A DNA stretch of 38,599 bases from an uncultured Gammaproteobacteria bacterium (GTDB lineage: Bacteria; Pseudomonadota; Gammaproteobacteria; GCA-001735895). A model generated the notes under the pieces. The model was not told where the DNA came from and did not search any database. It was given only the letters and a program-made list of their open reading frames with translations. The translations under genes were made by a program, and so were the position numbers. The first letter of the stretch is position 1, and each line of letters opens with the position of its first letter. Positions 2,544-23,758 of this stretch are shown one piece after another. The stretch lies in contig CAMYON010000075.1 of the NCBI GenBank assembly GCA_947260025.1, positions 1 to 38,599 on the forward strand, written 5' to 3'.

Positions 2544-4118
2544 TCAGGCCTGGTCGAAGTAGTTTTGCATGAAGGTTTCGAAGGGGATATCGTCGGCGGC
2601 TTCGATGGCATGCTGTTTTTCGATCGATTGCGCAGCCTCCGCCTCGAATGCCTTGAGTTTGTCGGCAGCGAGCGGCCGTTCGGCAAACCACTGCTGGTGC
2701 TCGCGCGACTTGCGCAGCGCGAAGTGATAGAACTCTTCCTTGTGCTCGGCCATGTCGGCTAGCATTCTGGCCGAAGGAGTCAGGTCGGGATCGACAATTT
2801 TGGCGCGCTGTTTTTGCAGCGCATCGCAATAAGAATGTATTTCGGCGCCTCTGTCTAACAGGTCGCAGCCGGCAGACATGCGGTCGAAAATTTCGTTAGC
2901 CCAGTCGCGCAGCAGTATATCCCCGCCGGCGCGGCGCAATTTCAACTTCGGATCGCGCCCGCGTTCGGCGACCGCGTTGATATTGTGTTTGATCTCGACC
3001 AGTTCGGCATCGGTATAGGGATCGCTCGGCGACAGCAGGCTGAACAGTAAGAACGATTCCAGGAAGCGCATCTGCTCTTCGCTGATGCCGAGCGGCTCGT
3101 AGGCGTTGACGTCGAGCGAGCGCAGCTCGATATAGGCGACGCCGCGCCTGGCCAGCGCCAGCGTCGGTTTTTCCTCGCCCTGCAGAATCTGCTTCGGGCG
3201 TACGCTCGAGTAGTACTCGTTTTCGATCTGCAGGATGTTGGTGTTGAGCTGTTGCCATTCGCCGTTTGCGATCATTTCGATCTTTTCGTATTCGGGGTAG
3301 GGCGTAGAAATCGCGTGCGCCAGGCTGTCGACGTAGCCCTGCAGGCTGTTGTAGTTGACCTTTATACCGGCCTCGCCTTCCTTGTTATTCTGGTAACCGA
3401 TATCGCCCACGCGCAACGACGTGGCGTAGGGTGCATAATAGGAAAATTTTTGCCATTTTTTCAGCGAGGTCGGCGACGCGCCGAGGAACGAAGCGCAGAT
3501 CGCCGGTGAGGCGCCAAACAGGTAGGGCACCAGCCAGCCGTTGCGCTGCAGGTTGCGCACCATGCCGATATAGGATTCGGATACGAATGTCCTGTGATCG
3601 CGCTCATCGCCGAGTATCGACTGGTAAAGTTGCCAGAATTCATCCGGGTACGAGTAGTTGAAATGCACTCCGGCGATGGCCTGCATCATGCGTCCGTAGC
3701 GGTGGCCGAGACCGCGCCGGTAGGCGCTTTTCATCTTCGCCGCATTCGATGAGCCGTATTGCGCGATGGGGATACTGGCATCGCCCTCGACCACGCAGGG
3801 CATGCTCGTGGCCCACAGGATTTCATTATCGAGCTGGCTGTAGACGAAACGCTGGGTATCGTCGAGAAATCCCAGCGTATCGCAGAAATGATTGAATGGT
3901 GGCGTCACCAGTTCGAGCAGCGCCTCCGAGTAGTCGGTGGTGATGCTGGGGTGGGTTAGCGCCGAACCGAGGCTTTGTGGATGCGGGGTCTGGGCGATAC
4001 CCCCCTCGACCGCGACGCGCAGACTTTCCTTTTCGAGCCCGACCTTGCGGTCCTGCAATACTTTTCTGATGTCGCTATTCAGTAAATGCGCGACACGCTG
4101 TTCGATGATGGAGCTCAA
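2544..4118 (-). CDS. gshA: Glutamate-cysteine ligase (gamma-glutamylcysteine synthetase)
   Basis: First step of glutathione synthesis: ATP-dependent joining of Glu and Cys in the cytosol. The 524 residues match the E. coli-type GshA (about 518). Recognisable stretches are VGLEKESLRV near 26-35, TDYSEALLELVTPP near 61-74 and YIELRSLDVNAYEP near 330. The start is TTG at 4118, preceded by AGGGA at 4126-4130 with 7-nt spacing; no in-frame ATG lies nearby upstream. It is the third gene of a minus-strand run after the M20 and DDAH-type genes, with a 79-bp gap, so it may also have its own promoter. gshB is not in the window. The gene ends beside the 27-bp repeat array. Confidence 0.95.
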   Translation of the reverse strand: MSSIIEQRVAHLLNSDIRKVLQDRKVGLEKESLRVAVEGGIAQTPHPQSLGSALTHPSITTDYSEALLELVTPPFNHFCDTLGFLDDTQRFVYSQLDNEILWATSMPCVVEGDASIPIAQYGSSNAAKMKSAYRRGLGHRYGRMMQAIAGVHFNYSYPDEFWQLYQSILGDERDHRTFVSESYIGMVRNLQRNGWLVPYLFGASPAICASFLGASPTSLKKWQKFSYYAPYATSLRVGDIGYQNNKEGEAGIKVNYNSLQGYVDSLAHAISTPYPEYEKIEMIANGEWQQLNTNILQIENEYYSSVRPKQILQGEEKPTLALARRGVAYIELRSLDVNAYEPLGISEEQMRFLESFLLFSLLSPSDPYTDAELVEIKHNINAVAERGRDPKLKLRRAGGDILLRDWANEIFDRMSAGCDLLDRGAEIHSYCDALQKQRAKIVDPDLTPSARMLADMAEHKEEFYHFALRKSREHQQWFAERPLAADKLKAFEAEAAQSIEKQHAIEAADDIPFETFMQNYFDQA

Positions 4119-4197: not shown

Positions 4198-5169
4198 TTA
4201 ACCAGCCTGTTCGCGCTGCAGTATGCCGCTCAGGCAACCGACGTTACCGGCCGCCCTGGTCAATTCTTCGGTCGGCGTGGTCAGGCATTCGACACCCATG
4301 TCCTCGAAGTAAGCCTGCACCCGCGGCAGACCACCTACCATCAGGATACGCCGCGGTCCCAGCGTAACGAAGTTGATGCCGCGGTAGCTTTCCGGGTCGT
4401 CGGCGAAGGGCGGAAACCTGACCTCGTAGCCATGCTCCTGCAGTACCCTGACAGTGCGATGCGGGGTGCGCCGCGGCCAGCAGATCGCGAGATCGTGATC
4501 GACGATGCGCAGCAGGCTCATGAAATGCATGATGCCGAACGGCGAATCCACCGCGATCAGGTCGATGCCGAGTTCCGCCAGCAGGGTTTCGATCTGGGCG
4601 ATGGCGGCGTCATTGGTACGCAGTCCGCGTCCGACCATCGCGGTTTTTTCGTCGATCCACATCAGGTCAGCGCCCTCGAAGGTGCCGCTGCCAGTCAGCG
4701 TTTTCAGGATTGGAATGCCCAGATCAGCGAGCCTGCGCGCGACCCAGCGTTCTTCCGCGGCGCGCACCGTCGAGGCCGGCCGCGCCAGGATCGCGCCCTG
4801 CGGCGTCATGACGAAAAGGTCGGCGCAAAACATCAGGTTCGGCTGGCACGGCAATTCGGGTTCGACGAAATGCACTTCGACACCCTGCGAGCGGTAAACT
4901 TCGACCATGGCGTTGTGCTCATCCCTTGCTTTGGCTACATCGACCGGCGCCAGCATTTGCACGGCTTCGGGGTCGTCCTGGGCCGCGTTCAATTCTTCGC
5001 CGGGGCAGTGCAACAACACCGATTTGAGTTCGCGCCATTCCGAATCGATGCCGCAACCGCCCCAGATTTCACCCAGCTCCTGCTGATGTGTGGCCAGGCG
5101 TTGCGACCAGTTATCGCCGCCGTAAGCCGCGGTACCGAACGTGCTGGCTGATTTTTTGTCAGTCGCCAT
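4198..5169 (-). CDS. DDAH/amidinotransferase-fold guanidino hydrolase
   Basis: A 323-residue member of the amidinotransferase superfamily (dimethylarginine dimethylaminohydrolase, arginine deiminase, glycine amidinotransferase). These enzymes attack a guanidinium carbon with a Cys. Visible are the substrate-side acid region FCADLFVMTP (D117), the guanidinium-binding FEGAD (164-168), the catalytic His in GIMHFMSL (H215) and the nucleophile in GNVGCLSG (C312) near the C-terminus. The usual GG before the Cys region is AAGN here. There is no signal peptide. The gene starts 2 nt after the stop of the M20 hydrolase, so the two are almost certainly co-transcribed. A hydrolase of methylated arginine or another guanidino compound is likely. 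The exact substrate cannot be read from sequence. Confidence 0.85.
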   Translation of the reverse strand: MATDKKSASTFGTAAYGGDNWSQRLATHQQELGEIWGGCGIDSEWRELKSVLLHCPGEELNAAQDDPEAVQMLAPVDVAKARDEHNAMVEVYRSQGVEVHFVEPELPCQPNLMFCADLFVMTPQGAILARPASTVRAAEERWVARRLADLGIPILKTLTGSGTFEGADLMWIDEKTAMVGRGLRTNDAAIAQIETLLAELGIDLIAVDSPFGIMHFMSLLRIVDHDLAICWPRRTPHRTVRVLQEHGYEVRFPPFADDPESYRGINFVTLGPRRILMVGGLPRVQAYFEDMGVECLTTPTEELTRAAGNVGCLSGILQREQAG

Positions 5170-5171
5170 GT

Positions 5172-6257
5172 TTAATCAGCCTGCAATTGCGTTTCGACCA
5201 GCGTCACCCAGAAATCCGCGCCGATACTGAGTATGTCGTCGTTAAAATCATAGGCTGGATTATGCAGGCTGCAGCCGCCAACCCCTTCCTCGCCGTTACC
5301 CAGCAACAGGTATGCGCCGGGGCGGGCCTGCAGCATGTAGCCGAAATCCTCGGAGGCCATGACCGGGCGGCTGTCGCCCACCACGTTTTCCGCGCCGACC
5401 ACCAGGCGCGCCGTCGCCGCCGCGATGTCGGCCTCCGCCGGCGTATTGATCGTAGGCACGAAGTTGCGCCGGTAGCTGAATTCGTAACTCGCGCCGTGCG
5501 CGGCACAGATTCCGCTGACGATGCGCTCCATCGTCGACTCGATCTGATCCTGTACCGCCGTGGTCAGGGAGCGGGTATCGCCTTTTAGAATCACCTGGCC
5601 GGGTACCACGTTGACGGTGCCGTTGGTGACGAACTCGGTGAAGGAAACCACCGCGTTGTCGATCGGATTCATCGTGCGCGATACCAGCGACTGCATCGCG
5701 CTGACGATTTCGGCACCGATGACGATCGCGTCCTTGCCGAGGTGAGGCATGGCCGCGTGGCAGCCGACGCCGTTGACGGTGATTTCGAAGTTGTCCTCGG
5801 CGGCCATGATCGAGCCCGCGCGCACCGCGAATTTGCCGACTGCAAGCGACGGGAAGTTATGGATGGCGTAAACCGCGTCGACCGGGAAACGTTCGAACAA
5901 CCCGTCCTCGATCATCGCCCGGGCGCCGTCGCCATGCTCCTCGGCGGGCTGGAAAATAAACACCGCGGTGCCGTCGAACTCACCCTTGGCGGCGAGGTAT
6001 TGCGCGGCGCCGAGCAGCATCGCGGTATGACCGTCGTGGCCGCAGGCGTGCATCTTGCCCGCGTTGAGGGAACGGTGTTCGAAGCTGTTCTCTTCGTGGA
6101 TCTTGAGCGCATCCATGTCAGCGCGCAGCCCGATGGCGCGCTCGCCGTTGCCTCTCTTCAACACGCCGACGACGCCGGTGTTGCCGACCGAGGTATGCAC
6201 TTCGAGCCCGAACTGCTCGAGCAGGTCAGCCACCTTTTCGGCGGTCAGTTTATTCAT
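5172..6257 (-). CDS. M20-family amidohydrolase, short at the N-terminus
   Basis: A 361-residue metal-dependent amidohydrolase of the aminoacylase/hippurate hydrolase type, which cleaves N-acyl amino acids. It contains LRADMDAL (44-51), the metal-binding HACGHDGHTAML (70-81), QPAEEHGDGA (103-112), the dimerisation-domain region GVGCHAAMPHLGKDA, and the C-terminal ASEDFGYM and GGCSLHNPAYDF. The family normally opens with 30-40 residues bearing RRxxHxxPE, and these are absent. An in-frame TAA lies ten codons upstream of the ATG, so they cannot be added. Metal ligands are nevertheless complete. Only 13 nt (or 37 with the later start) separate it from the divergent M24 gene. It is the first gene of the run with the DDAH-type hydrolase. 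An M20 deacetylase acting in ectoine-type catabolism is possible given the EctC nearby, but this is inference. Confidence 0.88.
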   Translation of the reverse strand: MNKLTAEKVADLLEQFGLEVHTSVGNTGVVGVLKRGNGERAIGLRADMDALKIHEENSFEHRSLNAGKMHACGHDGHTAMLLGAAQYLAAKGEFDGTAVFIFQPAEEHGDGARAMIEDGLFERFPVDAVYAIHNFPSLAVGKFAVRAGSIMAAEDNFEITVNGVGCHAAMPHLGKDAIVIGAEIVSAMQSLVSRTMNPIDNAVVSFTEFVTNGTVNVVPGQVILKGDTRSLTTAVQDQIESTMERIVSGICAAHGASYEFSYRRNFVPTINTPAEADIAAATARLVVGAENVVGDSRPVMASEDFGYMLQARPGAYLLLGNGEEGVGGCSLHNPAYDFNDDILSIGADFWVTLVETQLQAD

Positions 6258-6270
6258 GGTGTAAAGTGCC

Positions 6271-7449
6271 GTGAAAGATTCGCATTATATAACCATGTTC
6301 CGGCAACATTTACAGCAACTCAGGCAAAAGCTTGACGAATTCGACATCGATGTCGCGCTGATCACCGATGATGACTCGGTTTATTACTACAGCGGGTACT
6401 ACGATTACCTGCACATGGAGTTCGGGCGGCCGACGATCCTGCTGGTCCCGCGCGACGGCGAGAGCCTGCTGATAACGCCGTCCATCGACCTGAACATGGC
6501 GCTCGAGAATGCGCAAGTGGATCGGATCGAGGCCTGGAACGACGGCCTTGGTAACGAATGGCGCGAGCACATCCCGGCGCAACTCGAACACGCCGCCCGG
6601 GTTGCGATCGAGCCGCAGCAGATGCCGCCGCCGGTGCGTGCCTATATCGATACGCTGGTCGATGCGGTCAGCCTCGCGGACATCACCCCCATCGTTGCCG
6701 AGATGCGCATGGTCAAGTCGCCCGCGGAACTGCAGCTGGCGCGGCACGCGGGCATGGTGGCCAACGCGATGATGCAGGCGGGACGCGAGGCAATTGCCGC
6801 GGGCGTCGCCGAGTACGAAGTGGCGCTGGCCACTTCGCAGGCGGGTACCCTGAAATCTTCCGAACTGCTGGCGCGGCACTACGGCGACAGCGAGATGTCG
6901 CCCAGTACCCATTTCCTGCAGATCATGGCCTCCGGCGAAGACATCATCAAGACTCACCACCGCGCCTCGAATCGCGTCATGCGTCATGGCGATCCGGTAT
7001 TCCTGTGTTTCTGCGGGATGACAAACTTTCATAAGTTCAAACTCGGTTTCGATCGCACTTTCTGGATCGGAAACGTTCGCGATAAATCCGAGGAGAAGAT
7101 TTATCAAATCGCGCTCGACAGCCAGGCGGCGGCGTTATCGATGCTACGCCCCGGCGTGGTCGCGGAAGAGGTGCATGCTGCCTATGCCGAGGTCATTCAA
7201 TCCGCCGGTTATGACTATCCGTTTCGTTGCGGGCGTGGTACCGGCTTTAGTTTCATGGAAAAGCCGCAGCTGGTGAGCGGTGACCGGACCGTGCTGCAGC
7301 CGTACATGGTGCTGGCGGTGGACGGGTCGGTCAGTACTGACAGGTTCAGGGCGCAGGTGGGCGACAGTTTTATCCTGACCGAAGACGGGTATGAGCCGAT
7401 TACCGCCCATCCCAAATCGATCGACGACGTGATTATTCCGCACGAGTAA
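6271..7449 (+). CDS. M24-fold (creatinase/aminopeptidase-like) hydrolase with degenerate metal site
   Basis: A 392-residue 'pita-bread' protein. An N-terminal creatinase-type domain (to about 145) is followed by an M24 domain (about 155-385). Of the five metal ligands of M24 peptidases, by-eye alignment keeps D261 (GFDRTFWIG) and an Asp for Glu change at D351 (MVLAVDGSV). The first Asp is gone (CGMTNFHK region), GHGIG has become GRGTGF (R322), and the last Glu is G364 (QVGDSFILTEDG). It is therefore unlikely to be a classical Xaa-Pro aminopeptidase. Metal-free relatives such as creatinase and ectoine hydrolase DoeA/EutD cleave C-N bonds in small cyclic or guanidino compounds. H229/H230 in KTHHRAS aligns with the creatinase His region. 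The start is GTG at 6271 or ATG at 6295; neither has a clear ribosome site. EctC follows after 85 bp. Confidence 0.8.
   Translation: MKDSHYITMFRQHLQQLRQKLDEFDIDVALITDDDSVYYYSGYYDYLHMEFGRPTILLVPRDGESLLITPSIDLNMALENAQVDRIEAWNDGLGNEWREHIPAQLEHAARVAIEPQQMPPPVRAYIDTLVDAVSLADITPIVAEMRMVKSPAELQLARHAGMVANAMMQAGREAIAAGVAEYEVALATSQAGTLKSSELLARHYGDSEMSPSTHFLQIMASGEDIIKTHHRASNRVMRHGDPVFLCFCGMTNFHKFKLGFDRTFWIGNVRDKSEEKIYQIALDSQAAALSMLRPGVVAEEVHAAYAEVIQSAGYDYPFRCGRGTGFSFMEKPQLVSGDRTVLQPYMVLAVDGSVSTDRFRAQVGDSFILTEDGYEPITAHPKSIDDVIIPHE
6284..6289 (-). promoter_or_regulatory. Perfect TATAAT -10 box ahead of the M20 gene
   Basis: On the minus strand the sequence reads GGTTATATAATGCG, giving an exact TATAAT about 26 nt before the M20 start codon. 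No convincing -35 box lies 16-18 nt further upstream (TAAATG at best). The box overlaps the start region of the divergent M24 gene. It suggests that M20 translation really begins at 6257, with a leader of about 20 nt. Confidence 0.35.
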
Positions 7450-7523
7450 AGCCTGGCGGTAAACACGGTGTTTGCGCGTTCTGGCAGCTGATTGTTCGGT
7501 GTTATCATGGCGCCTGGATTAGC

Positions 7524-7528
7524 GGGAG
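7524..7528 (+). promoter_or_regulatory. Ribosome binding site that decides the ectC start
   Basis: GGGAG lies 6 nt before the second of two adjacent ATG codons (7535) and only 3 nt before the first (7532). Spacing favours 7535. The EctC residue numbering then matches the family exactly. Confidence 0.6.
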
Positions 7529-7534
7529 CAAATG

Positions 7535-7921
7535 ATGATCGTAAGAAGCCTGGATGACCTGATCGATACCGAGCGCGACGTACGCGGCCCGGTGTGGGCG
7601 AGCCGACGTTTCCTGTTGGCCGAGGACGGGGTCGGTTTCACGCTGACCGAAACCACCACCGAGGCCGGTGCCGAACAGATTCTGTGGTACAAGCACCACG
7701 TCGAGGCGAACTACGTCATCGAGGGCCGGGGTGAAGTCGAAAACCTCGCTACCGGCGAAGTCTTCGAGCTCGGGCCGGGATCGATGTATGCCCTCGACCA
7801 GAACGAAAAGCACTGCCTCAGGTCGTTCACGCGCATGCGCCTGGTCTGCGTGTTTACGCCGGCGCTGACCGGGCGCGAAACCCACGATGAAGACGGCGCC
7901 TATGCGCCCCCGGCCAAGTGA
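7535..7921 (+). CDS. ectC: L-ectoine synthase (solitary EctC)
   Basis: A 128-residue cupin of the EctC family, which cyclises N-gamma-acetyl-diaminobutyrate to ectoine with loss of water. Counting from the ATG at 7535, the iron ligands described for EctC are all present at the expected numbers (E57, Y85, H93). So are the substrate-contact residues W21, R25, T40, Y52, H55, E115 and H117; only position 38 (often Asn) is Thr. The conserved end LTGRETHDEDGAY is intact. ectA, ectB and ectD are not in the window, so this is an orphan copy beside M24, M20 and DDAH-type hydrolases. Solitary EctC proteins are known in bacteria that do not make ectoine, and EctC can make side products such as the cyclic amidine ADPC from glutamine. 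The physiological role here is therefore open. Confidence 0.93.
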   Translation: MIVRSLDDLIDTERDVRGPVWASRRFLLAEDGVGFTLTETTTEAGAEQILWYKHHVEANYVIEGRGEVENLATGEVFELGPGSMYALDQNEKHCLRSFTRMRLVCVFTPALTGRETHDEDGAYAPPAK

Positions 7922-7950: not shown

Positions 7951-9249
7951 GTGAACGCTATCGTATCGGGAGATGGTGGTAGCCATGAGGCTCCCACCCG
8001 CGCGCAGGCGTTTCGCGTCTGGTTACGCATCGGGCTTTTATCGTTCGGTGGTCCCGCGGCGCAGATTGCGCTGATGCATCGCGAAGTGGTCGATATCAAA
8101 AACTGGCTCAGCGAGAAACAGTTTCTGAATGCGCTGAGTTTTTGCATGCTGTTGCCGGGACCGGAGGCGATGCAGCTGGCCACCTATGCCGGCTGGCGCC
8201 TGCACGGGGTTAGCGGCGGGCTGATCGCCGGCCTGTTGTTCGTATTGCCCGGGGCAATCGTAATTTTCGCGCTGGCATTGATCTACGGACTCTATGGCGA
8301 TGTTTCGCTGGTCAGCGCCCTGTTTCTCGGCGTCAAGGCGGCGGTGATCGTTATCGTTATCGAAGCCCTGCTGAAGGTTTCGCGCCGAGCGCTGCACCTG
8401 ACCGAGCACTGGGTTATCGCCGCGCTCGCTTTCGTCGGGATCTTCTTCCTGGCGCTGCCGTTTCCGTTGATCATCATCGCCGCCGCGGCCTTCGGTTTCC
8501 TGCGCGCGACCGCGCAGGCCGCCGACGAGCAGCCCGTTCGGGTAAAGGTATCGCCGCTCGGCAGCCTGGGCACCGCGATGATCTGGCTGGCGCTCTGGGG
8601 CGCGCCGATGGCGGCTCTCGCCGTGCTCGATGACAACGGGCTGCTGCTCGAGATTGGCATCTTCTTCTCCAAGCTTGCGGTGGTTACCTTCGGCGGCGCC
8701 TACGCCGTGCTGGCTTACCTCGGACAGGATGTCGTGGTGCATTTCGGCTGGCTTACCGCCGGTGAAATGATGGACGGGCTCGGACTGGCCGAGACCACAC
8801 CCGGGCCGCTGATCCTGGTGAACGAGTTTGTCGGTTTCCTGGCCGCGTTTCGTGACGGCGGTATCTGGTATGGACTGGCGGGCGCCGTGGTGACGCTTTG
8901 GGCAACCTTTGTGCCCTGTTTCCTGTGGATTTTCGTCGGCGCGCCCTATATCGACTGGATCGGATCGCAGGCGCGCCTGCGCGGCGCCCTGACCGCGATT
9001 ACGGCGGCGGTGGTCGGGGTAATCCTGAACCTTTCGATCTGGTTCGCGCTGCACGTGTTTTTTGCGCGGGTTCAGCTGCAGGATTACGGGCCGTTGGTGC
9101 TGTGGCGTCCCGAGTTGGCGTCGCTGGACTGGCGCGTCATCGCGCTCTCGCTATTGTCCGCGCTGTTGCTGTTCAGGTTTCACTGGGGTGTATCGCGCGT
9201 GCTGATCGTGTCCTCGATCTGCGGCGTTCTGCTGACTGGCCTGGCGTAA
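7951..9249 (+). CDS. chrA: Chromate-transporter family (ChrA) membrane protein
   Basis: A 432-residue inner-membrane protein with two homologous CHR halves, the long form of ChrA that exports chromate by proton antiport. The first half carries LSFGGPAAQIALMHRE and LNALSFCMLLPGPEAMQLA (about 29-75). The second carries VVTFGGAYAVLAYL and GLGLAETTPGPLILVNEFVGF (about 245-295). Ten to twelve hydrophobic segments are visible. The start is GTG at 7951 with GGAGG at 7940-7944, 6 nt upstream, so the start is well supported. It follows ectC by 29 bp on the same strand and could be co-transcribed. In marine bacteria lacking chromate stress the true substrate may be another oxyanion. Confidence 0.92.
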   Translation: MNAIVSGDGGSHEAPTRAQAFRVWLRIGLLSFGGPAAQIALMHREVVDIKNWLSEKQFLNALSFCMLLPGPEAMQLATYAGWRLHGVSGGLIAGLLFVLPGAIVIFALALIYGLYGDVSLVSALFLGVKAAVIVIVIEALLKVSRRALHLTEHWVIAALAFVGIFFLALPFPLIIIAAAAFGFLRATAQAADEQPVRVKVSPLGSLGTAMIWLALWGAPMAALAVLDDNGLLLEIGIFFSKLAVVTFGGAYAVLAYLGQDVVVHFGWLTAGEMMDGLGLAETTPGPLILVNEFVGFLAAFRDGGIWYGLAGAVVTLWATFVPCFLWIFVGAPYIDWIGSQARLRGALTAITAAVVGVILNLSIWFALHVFFARVQLQDYGPLVLWRPELASLDWRVIALSLLSALLLFRFHWGVSRVLIVSSICGVLLTGLA

Positions 9250-22312: not shown

Positions 22313-22507
22313 ATGTTTTTTCTCGTGACCGGGCTCATTATGCTGGCGCTCATCATCGGTCTTTTCTGGCTCAAGGACCGTCTGGCAAGCCCGCTGCTCG
22401 CGCGTATCGCCTATTCCGGGCTCATCGCTCGGCTGGCCCTGGTAGGCGGGGCCTTCTCGGTGATCGGAGTGCTACTGATACTGGCCAATTTTGTCCGGGA
22501 TTGGTAA
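22313..22507 (+). CDS. Small two-helix membrane protein
   Basis: A 64-residue hypothetical protein with two hydrophobic segments (about 2-20 and 36-60) joined by a short charged loop (WLKDRLASPLLARIA). No family recognised. It lies between the divergently transcribed hydrolase and the TPP operon. Its codon pattern is like that of its neighbours, and it overlaps no other likely gene. No strong ribosome site is visible. It may be real, but evidence is limited to length, hydrophobicity and position. Confidence 0.5.
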   Translation: MFFLVTGLIMLALIIGLFWLKDRLASPLLARIAYSGLIARLALVGGAFSVIGVLLILANFVRDW

Positions 22508-22628
22508 GTCCGAGGATTGGGGTGACTGTGGCAGGCTGGGGTCTACGGCGATGGTGCGGTTATACTACTCCCGATCCGGGTGGAATGAGATAAAGTTAGT
22601 TGCCACCATAATTACCAAAGGGCTGTTC

Positions 22629-23156
22629 ATGACTCAAACAGATATAGCAACCTGGTCTGGAGAAATTTACCAGAAGCTGTTACGGCACCGGGTCCGTCAG
22701 GTTGCCTACGTGCCGGACGCCGGGCATCTGCACCTGATCGAGCGCTGTATCGAGAGTCGCGAAATGGTTTCGGTGCCGTTGACGACGGAGGAGGAAGGTG
22801 TGGCACTACTTGCCGGGGCCTGGTTGGGCGGAGACCGCGGCGTATTGTTGATGCAAAGCAGCGGCGTCGGCAATTGCCTCAATATGCTTTCATTGCCGCG
22901 GGTATGCGAAATGCCGTTGGTGATGCTGGTGACGATGCGAGGCGAATGCGGGGAATTCAATCCCTGGCAGATCCCGATGGGACGGAACACCGAAAAACTG
23001 TTGACGACTGCCGGTGTCCTGACTTTTCCGGTCGACGAAAGCGGTCGGCTCGAGGAAGTGGTTGACTCAGCGATGCGCAAGGCCTTCGAAGGACCGTCCG
23101 CCGTCGCCGTCCTGATATCGCAGCGCATTCTCGGCGTAAAAAACTTCGGCAAGTAA
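22629..23156 (+). CDS. TPP-dependent decarboxylase, alpha (PYR) subunit
   Basis: A 175-residue subunit carrying the pyrimidine-binding domain of a split thiamine-diphosphate decarboxylase of the sulfopyruvate/phosphonopyruvate type (ComD-like). The TPP-activating Glu is in PLTTEEEGVALLAGAWLGG. LLMQSSGVGNCLNMLSLP matches the LMQNSGLGN signature of this group. MLVTMRGECGEFNPWQ follows the family pattern. I use the ATG at 22629, preceded by AAAGGG at a 7-nt spacing; an earlier reading from 22491 has no support. The partner subunit starts 2 nt after the stop. Substrate is probably a 2-oxo acid carrying an acidic group. Neither comA-C, suyAB nor phosphonate genes are nearby, so the pathway is unknown. 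Confidence 0.85.
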   Translation: MTQTDIATWSGEIYQKLLRHRVRQVAYVPDAGHLHLIERCIESREMVSVPLTTEEEGVALLAGAWLGGDRGVLLMQSSGVGNCLNMLSLPRVCEMPLVMLVTMRGECGEFNPWQIPMGRNTEKLLTTAGVLTFPVDESGRLEEVVDSAMRKAFEGPSAVAVLISQRILGVKNFGK

Positions 23157-23158
23157 GC

Positions 23159-23758
23159 ATGGATTCAGAGCGCAGCAAACACTACCCGCTGTATCGCCGG
23201 CAAGTTGTCGCAAGATTACTCCGTGATCGCGGCGACATGCTGGTCGTGGCCGGGCTTGGCGCTTCGGCCTGGGATATTACCGCCGCCGGTGACGATCCGC
23301 TCAATTTTCCCCTGTGGGGAGCAATGGGCGGCGCGGTGCCGATGGGGCTGGGCCTGGCCCTGTCGCAACCTGGGCGCAGGGTGCTGGTCGTGACCGGCGA
23401 CGGTGAAATGTTGATGGGGCTGGGGTCGCTCGCAACGGTCGCCCTCCAATCGCCGGCCAATCTCGGCATTGTGGTACTCGACAACGAGCATTACGGGGAG
23501 ACCGGGATGCAATCGACCCATACGGCGGGAAATGCCGATTTAGCAGCAATGGCGATTGCTGCCGGATTCCCGGTTTGTGATACCGTGTGGGACGATGCCG
23601 GACTCGAGGCGGCGCTGCCCCTGATTCGAAATGGAAAAGCCCCGGTATTCCTGAATATCAAGATCCGCGCGGAAACTCCGCCACTGGTGTTACCGCCGAA
23701 GCAGGGCGTCGTGCTCAAGAACCGTTTTCGGCTGGCTTTGCTGGGGGCTGAAGAATGA
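23159..23758 (+). CDS. TPP-dependent decarboxylase, beta (PP) subunit
   Basis: A 199-residue partner of the previous gene with the diphosphate-binding domain. The TPP/Mg motif runs from VTGDGEMLMGLGSLATVA to IVVLDNEHYGETG (GDG to DN, 26 residues apart). It is preceded by NFPLWGAMGGAVPMGLGLAL, the family's glycine-rich segment. ComE of sulfopyruvate decarboxylase and the C-terminal half of phosphonopyruvate decarboxylase look like this. Start ATG at 23159, 2 nt after the alpha stop. The stop overlaps the next gene (ATGA), so the three genes should be translated together. Family is clear; the substrate acid is not. Confidence 0.87.
   Translation: MDSERSKHYPLYRRQVVARLLRDRGDMLVVAGLGASAWDITAAGDDPLNFPLWGAMGGAVPMGLGLALSQPGRRVLVVTGDGEMLMGLGSLATVALQSPANLGIVVLDNEHYGETGMQSTHTAGNADLAAMAIAAGFPVCDTVWDDAGLEAALPLIRNGKAPVFLNIKIRAETPPLVLPPKQGVVLKNRFRLALLGAEE

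Follow-up and report, generated by a model that had tools for sequence, protein, structure and literature searches.

A solitary EctC-family gene in a conserved four-gene unit of an uncultured gammaproteobacterium: a possible module for the turnover of a cyclic amidine or guanidine

The window analysed here is the whole stretch of 38,599 nucleotides (nt) that forms contig CAMYON010000075.1 of assembly GCA_947260025.1, from an uncultured gammaproteobacterium. Its positions 4198 to 7921 carry four neighbouring genes, which encode a protein of the dimethylargininase (DDAH)/arginine-deiminase family, an M20 amidohydrolase, a creatinase-type M24 protein and a solitary member of the ectoine synthase family EctC. 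The four genes may constitute one co-regulated catabolic (or turnover) module, whose substrate would be a small cyclic amidine or guanidine with a carboxylate, and not ectoine. This reading, drawn from sequence comparison, is tentative, and a probability of about 0.36 is given to it. The window belongs to an incomplete assembly (170 contigs, 94.45% complete), and the 31 congeneric genomes compared, its own included, are likewise incomplete assemblies. Among named organisms, uncultured Gammaproteobacteria and a worm symbiont, the Olavius algarvensis Gamma 3 endosymbiont, stand nearest to it, and the bacteria that carry the unit are marine.

The unit has a head-to-head layout, with M20 and DDAH in one direction and M24 and EctC in the other. 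The leftward pair, on the minus strand, consists of the M20 deacylase gene (5172–6257; TIGR01891) followed after 2 nt by the gene of the DDAH-type protein, a member of a guanidine-modifying superfamily (4198–5169; PF02274, PF19420). The rightward pair, on the plus strand, consists of the M24 gene (6295–7449; PF00557, PF01321) followed after 82 nt by the EctC gene (7532–7921; NF009806). Between the start codons of M20 and M24 lies a divergent intergenic stretch of 37 nt (6258–6294), which is presumed to be a shared control region. GTG at 6271 is also a possible start of M24, ATG at 6295 being the one common to its relatives, and EctC may start with the ATG at 7532 or that at 7535. All four open reading frames named in an earlier note on this DNA were confirmed at their place by coordinates and family matches; they are flanked by GshA (2544–4118, minus strand) and a chromate-transporter gene (7951–9249, plus strand).

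The layout is shared by other members of the genus. Among 14 loci scanned, the two divergent start codons could be located by sequence pattern in 10 (L124, L153, L154 and L155 gave no result), and they are 37 nt apart in seven, 38 nt in two and 52 nt in one. The distance from M20 to DDAH is 2–3 nt in seven distinct loci; between M24 and EctC the gap varies from -4 to 227 nt (10 distinct loci; -4 in L037, 4 in L033 and L035). This spacing of start codons and pairs suggests a shared control of the four genes. Gene calls in some loci come from a simple open reading frame caller, and EctC was overlooked in several of them. Orthologues of the window-clade EctC (at least 75% identity) are found in 17/31 congeners, one of them cut by a contig end (G022); those of M24 (at least 69%) are intact in 18/31 and broken in G004, those of DDAH (at least 69%) are intact in 14/31 and carry a stop in G011, and those of M20 (at least 78%) occur in 16/31. 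The neighbourhood, which the earlier note had proposed to seek in other genomes, is present with all four genes in 10 of the 31; a named public genome, that of the O. algarvensis Gamma 3 symbiont, carries one locus of the unit (L034). Three further genomes (G001, G003 and G006) have the M20–M24 pair at one locus (L153, L154, L155) and DDAH with EctC at another. Gene co-occurrence over the 31 congeners gives Fisher p values, which ignore shared ancestry, of 0.003 for EctC–M20, 0.027 for EctC–M24, 0.019 for EctC–DDAH, 0.0008 for M20–M24 and 0.00003 for M20–DDAH; the broken M24 of G004 and the DDAH of G011 were excluded from these sets, and the truncated EctC of G022 was included. The linkage that the earlier note had offered as an inference is thereby strengthened by the conserved short divergent stretch, the nearly overlapping pairs, the conservation among congeners and the co-occurrence of the genes even when they are split.

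In the split genome G006 (L046:7023-7880), DDAH and EctC are separated by a PF04072 methyltransferase-family gene; a same-looking gene, judged by its sequence start only, separates them in G001. The loci L039 and L009 belong to the same observation.

The EctC protein of the window is a clear family member, with 175.6 bits to NF009806 (cut-off 128) and 177.2 bits to PF06339 (cut-off 27), and it is the one PF06339 match in its genome. Numbered from the ATG at 7535, it has W21, S23, R25, T40, Y52, H55, E57, Y85, H93, E115 and H117. In the Paenibacillus lautus enzyme, according to the residues named in its report, the iron ligands are Glu57, Tyr84 and His92, and Trp21, Arg25, Asn38, Thr40 and Tyr52 belong to the substrate site (PMC6344544). 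The residues that the earlier note listed for the iron and substrate site are all present; position 38 is Thr in the window. Within its own clade this position is Thr in 17/19 and Asn in 2/19 rows, whereas it is His in 37/39 ectAB-linked rows and Asn in P. lautus EctC; the residue table omits proteins that are shorter than 100 aa, contain stops or are identical, and the ectAB-linked label, a BLAST match to ectA or ectB in the locus, is wrong for at least L048, which is counted in the window clade. That clade, of 19 rows, has a Shimodaira–Hasegawa-like approximate likelihood ratio (SH-aLRT) support of 96, and the support of the branch between it and the ectAB-linked group reaches only 80, in a tree of few columns. 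Three close relatives at 79–83% identity come from assemblies that bear the label Alphaproteobacteria or Hyphomicrobiales, owing to transfer or to a binning error; their neighbours in these loci (L038, L043, L048) are hydantoinase A/B genes or a metallo-beta-lactamase and an MttB-type gene.

Members of the window clade adjoin HyuA/HyuB (L038), a metallo-beta-lactamase and an MttB-type gene (L048, L043), or a 2-oxoglutarate oxygenase and an amidase (L041). The neighbour families viewed were the first 25 of 88 and of 77 for lone EctC and the first 25 of 76 for the ectAB-linked control, and no C-N hydrolase is among the first 25 of 76 in the control loci, which are mostly from Bacillota and thus differ in lineage from the lone-EctC set. 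In the congener G027 (L143:77-2258), a second EctC-type gene, 44% identical, lies directly upstream of a fragment of eutC and of a eutD over cut-off (634.7 bits); true ectoine-utilisation clusters thus take up EctC-type genes as well, which speaks for the joint module. At L138:8629-10562, an M24 gene with 143 bits to DoeA_2 (cut-off 575) is preceded by a divergent EctC-type gene just below the family cut-off (124.6 bits against 128). Tandem EctC-type domains and double-domain reading frames of 265–348 aa are found in L087, L088, L091, L092, L093, L094, L097 and L098, with nine EctC-like blocks at L092:6704-10347 and AstE/AspA-type deacylase genes nearby in L087, L092 and L094. On a Rhizobium gallicum plasmid (L147:3452-7399) and in L052, EctC adjoins an alanine-racemase-annotated gene, an adenylating enzyme and a carrier protein, which looks like a carrier-bound, natural-product use. 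Two-part genes resembling thiamine pyrophosphate (TPP) enzymes are present in the window itself (22491-23758), and genes similar to them by eye (L137:9869-10971, in G011) adjoin an EctC and an amidase.

In a profile search, neither EctA (TIGR02406) nor EctB (TIGR02407) was over cut-off in any of the 31 congeneric genomes (0/31 each), all of them incomplete. The absence of ectA and ectB reported in the earlier note thus extends beyond the window, and the complete ectABC elsewhere that it had named as speaking against its proposal was not found in these genomes. Genes for ectoine breakdown are, on the other hand, at hand: contig C10 of the same genome encodes in a row EutB (462 bits, cut-off 413), EutC (528, 471.65), EutD (624, 613) and EutE (498.5, 402.7), and 27 of the 31 congeners, the genome itself among them, have an EutD over cut-off. 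A side-by-side eutD–eutE arrangement is absent from the window. The organism probably degrades ectoine by the known route and, since canonical eutB, eutC, eutD and eutE lie elsewhere in its genome, the window module is probably not for ectoine itself.

The structure model of the M24 protein (12 sequences; mean predicted local distance difference test score, pLDDT, 80.1) has creatinase 1kp0 as its best PDB match, with a template modelling (TM) score of 0.83, a root-mean-square deviation of 3.3 and about 22% identity in the fold alignment; prolidases come next, and DoeA (6twk) has a TM score of 0.76. In a MAFFT alignment with 1CHM, all 17 M24 rows, drawn from the window clade and from a sister clade about 40% identical to it, keep creatinase Arg64, His232 and Arg263, have Asp for Glu262 and Glu358, and have Phe, once Tyr, at position 62. 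Creatinase His324 and His376 are not conserved in these rows, and the Asn249 column is Cys, the first residue of a Cys-x-Cys motif. Cys238 and Cys240 of this motif are invariant, as is His221, in 18/18 M24 rows. With regard to the prolidase metal ligands, the first Asp is replaced by Cys and the last Glu by Gly, the second metal Asp and the metal His are Gly and Arg in the HMMER alignment, and the remaining Glu is Asp. Judged by these residues and by its fold, the M24 protein is of the creatinase type with the usual metal ligands lost, in agreement with the creatinase-like label that the earlier note had given it. A tree joins the M24 rows to creatinase at 89/86 support, a node that is not starred, with long branches. 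For the interpretation of these positions, we presume the roles of creatinase Phe62, Arg64, His232, Glu262, Arg335 and Glu358.

An assignment of the M24 protein as an ectoine hydrolase was considered and rejected. Its scores with the DoeA/EutD models are far below their cut-offs (TIGR02993, 67.3 bits against 613; NF038259, 69.3 against 575), the DoeA residues are missing and a canonical eutD lies elsewhere in the genome; the four DoeA-type rows aligned (4/4) lack Arg64 and the acids at 262 and 358, and have Glu at the creatinase-249 column. The same genome also has a ~40% identical M24 paralogue (L128:6384-8465, G000:C100) that adjoins an Asp/Glu-racemase-like gene, a pairing that is found on Rhizobium and Paraburkholderia plasmids as well.

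The partner that recurs most widely beside M24 is the M20 deacylase. The window protein reaches 325.9 bits with TIGR01891 (cut-off 153.75), and remains below the cut-off of 550 for the DoeB2 model NF038260, both in its shortened window form (303.2 bits) and in two alphaproteobacterial partners (321.1 and 319.6 bits). Window-clade M24 was found in 3/398 genomes of a phylum sample, the genome itself counted, and in 17/198 genomes of one family (f223), which is taken as alphaproteobacterial from the likeness of its genes to those on Roseovarius plasmids. Among 18 further alphaproteobacterial M24 stretches, M20 is present in 10 and a EutA-like gene in three; in addition, no neighbour group other than M20 (14/30) exceeds five of the 30 M24 loci outside window-type clusters. 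By gene neighbourhood, M24–M20 is the broadest partnership, spanning two bacterial classes, and EctC and DDAH appear as additions in the gammaproteobacterial genus. The plasmids of Roseovarius pelagicus and Aminobacter sp. SR38 carry M24 at 69–70% identity, with EutA-like genes, Lrp and LysR regulators, genes annotated as ehuA, ehuC and ehuD, sarcosine oxidase subunits, and M20 next to a diaminopropionate ammonia-lyase. In R. pelagicus, M24 is followed by the EutA-like gene and a sarcosine oxidase operon with alpha and beta subunits over their cut-offs; the Aminobacter stretch has the beta and delta subunits only, by annotation. Sarcosine oxidase was nonetheless discarded as a core feature, given that soxA and soxB are absent (0/18) from the further alphaproteobacterial M24 loci. 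The statement of the earlier note that no transporter or regulator is visible is correct for the window cluster but not for its relatives, where both are seen beside M24–M20 genes.

The DDAH-type protein is over the Pfam cut-offs (PF02274, 42.6 bits against 22.8; PF19420, 41.1 bits) and below all NCBIfam equivalog cut-offs (NF045660, 95.2/340; NF045658, 51.1/450; NF045659, 44.1/300 bits). Asp117, Glu165, His215 and Cys312, which we take to be catalytic, are invariant in 9/9 aligned orthologues, and the columns for Asp60 and Glu65 of PaDDAH, in the numbering that we assume for it, are Asn and Ala. The structure model has a pLDDT of 58.1 and its fold matches, with DDAH first, are of low confidence. 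A plasmid search with this protein gave five records, all below 60% identity.

The creatinase-like site of M24 would point to a substrate with a carboxylate and an amidinium or guanidinium group, and a possible route can be drawn from it. In M24, Arg45, probably together with a second Arg, would bind the carboxylate, and Asp253 and Asp343 the amidinium or guanidinium; hydrolysis at the central carbon would involve His221, perhaps along with the two Cys, and would yield an N-acyl (or N-carbamoyl) amine. M20 would then remove the N-acyl or N-carbamoyl group from this product. EctC would be the ring-closing counterpart: should ring opening also produce a regioisomer that M20 is unable to use, EctC would condense it back to the ring, so that all material would exit through M20; alternatively, EctC may open the ring. 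For the DDAH-type enzyme, the target may be either substrate or product in a guanidino form; this is the weakest step. The re-closing (or opening) role is proposed from the loop of DoeA, DoeB and EctC in Halomonas elongata, which the module would copy without EctA and EctB, and from the side reactions of EctC. In the H. elongata work, as its expression experiments are described, DoeA gives rise to both N-alpha- and N-gamma-acetyl-diaminobutyrate, DoeB accepts only the N-alpha isomer and EctC turns the N-gamma isomer back to ectoine, an isomer specificity that the authors themselves call ambiguous (PMC3187862). EctC also forms 5-amino-3,4-dihydro-2H-pyrrole-2-carboxylate (ADPC) reversibly and hydrolyses homoectoine and 4,5-dihydro-2-methylimidazole-4-carboxylate (DHMICA), according to a review (PMC5924519). 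It is doubtful that the unit would represent a new pathway by which a cyclic amidine or guanidine is broken down as a nutrient, a lone EctC working beside a ring-opening hydrolase as its ring-closing counterpart (or opening the ring itself) and the M24 enzyme being a metal-less, thiol-based variant; the thiol-based variant is suggested by the Cys-x-Cys motif at the position of the first metal Asp of the peptidases and by the loss of the metals.

Several findings weigh against a single module. The window M20 lacks 30 conserved N-terminal codons, in frame, with conservation otherwise unbroken at its start and in the intergenic stretch: its N-terminus runs MNKLT-AEKVADLL, and at the hyphen the closest relative (G017, L164) carries 30 extra residues, including HRHPELAFEE, a stretch that is kept in 8/8 other rows compared (six gammaproteobacterial and two alphaproteobacterial). 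The module may thus be impaired in the window genome, or the assembly may be faulty there. In G004 (L124, G004:C232), stops split M24 into two pieces, and EctC is found only as a 40-residue piece, with M20 and DDAH intact; together with the M20 deletion, this breakage indicates that the unit, as read from these genomes, decays in places. Window-clade EctC occurs without M24 or M20 orthologues in G014, G016, G021 and G022, M24 occurs without M20 in G011, G012, G024 and G027, and no DDAH orthologue was found in the congener search for G002, G019 and G030. The conserved order extends to GshA and a gene of the phosphoenolpyruvate (PEP) mutase family, which have no evident link to the module, so that part of the synteny reflects simple descent. 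EctC and DDAH are each absent from the 18 further alphaproteobacterial M24 loci (0/18). As to the second Arg of the M24 site, MAFFT pairs creatinase Arg335 with an Arg of M24, but HMMER places this spot in a gap region. The proposal of the earlier note, that a cyclic amidine or guanidino osmolyte is made or salvaged and then opened and deacylated, fits the recurrent M24–M20 pair, but EctC and DDAH fall outside this widest core.

A rather unlikely alternative is a guanidino-acid route, in which the substrate of M24 would be creatine or a related linear guanidino acid, whose guanidine the DDAH-type enzyme would attack as well, EctC would interconvert a creatinine-like cyclic guanidine and its open form, and M20 would cut an N-carbamoyl product. 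Creatinase is indeed the best fold match of M24, whose rows retain Arg64 and acids at creatinase 262 and 358 throughout (17/17; their roles are presumed), but His324 and His376 are lost, Asn249 is Cys and the joint branch has only the 89/86 support noted above, with long branches. The DDAH-family gene within the unit would suit such a route, as would EctC-type genes elsewhere near a creatininase-family gene (L093) or hydantoinase A/B (L038). The EutA-like gene and sarcosine oxidase operon that follow M24 in R. pelagicus also favour it, but soxA and soxB are missing from all 18 other alphaproteobacterial M24 loci; besides, a guanidine split to urea requires no deacylase.

It is distinctly unlikely, in our view, that EctC has no part in a joint pathway, M24 and M20 working as a pair with EctC and DDAH as neighbours by descent. 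The alphaproteobacterial pairs that lack both EctC and DDAH would agree with this, as would the four congeners with clade EctC and neither M24 nor M20, and a conserved order that includes unrelated genes such as GshA. Against it, M24 and EctC overlap or are 4 nt apart in L033, L035 and L037, G001, G003 and G006 retain both halves though apart, and M24 and EctC are both degraded in G004. An improbable possibility is that EctC serves canonical ectoine breakdown, or scavenges N-gamma-acetyl-diaminobutyrate to form ectoine, and that its neighbours matter little. Its active-site residues are kept, and a context would be provided by the EutB, EutC, EutD and EutE matches of contig C10 and by EutD in most congeners, but EctC lies outside its own eut cluster, linked to M24 and M20 instead, and has Thr38 for His/Asn in the substrate site in 17/19 clade rows. 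The scavenging role has a precedent in the solitary EctC of Pseudomonas syringae B728a, for which the same review describes this proposal and calls the data 'not yet conclusive'; it counts 76 genomes with exclusively solitary ectC genes in its set and considers the role of these unresolved (PMC5924519).

Returning to the joint module for a cyclic amidine or guanidine, a compact and conserved four-gene unit makes the role of a lone EctC testable with four proteins. If the new thiol-based pathway considered above were real, many solitary EctC proteins may serve the breakdown of C-N bonds and not the synthesis of osmolytes. The M24 clade, widespread beside M20 and with an odd invariant Cys pair, poses a second enzyme question. 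If, speculatively, marine animals or sediments were to supply the substrate as a guanidino or amidino compound, the module would add a nitrogen nutrient to those known.

The kind of system is already known, namely the catabolism of cyclic amidines by a hydrolase and a deacylase, and the unit would be a variant of it. The closest parallel is EutD/EutE (DoeA/DoeB), with which it shares an M24-fold ring opener adjoining a deacylase and, in the alphaproteobacterial plasmid clusters, also EutA-like, Ehu-annotated transporter and Lrp genes; it differs in an M24 protein without the DoeA residues and in a deacylase of the M20 and not of the EutE family. DoeB2 is nevertheless among the best NCBIfam matches of the window M20, with the cut-off not reached. 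Creatinase (1CHM/1KP0) is the best fold of M24 and shares with it Phe/Tyr62, Arg64, His232, acid262, Arg263 and acid358, being weakly joined in the tree, but M24 has an invariant Cys-x-Cys and has not kept His324 and His376. With dimethylargininase and arginine deiminase, the DDAH-type protein shares the Cys, His, Glu and Asp, below the equivalog cut-offs. The EctC of ectABC operons is of the same family and has the same iron and substrate residues, whereas the window EctC forms its own clade, has no ectA or ectB and carries Thr38. The solitary EctC of P. syringae B728a likewise comes without ectAB; that of the window differs in its gene setting, a conserved unit with M24, M20 and DDAH-type genes.

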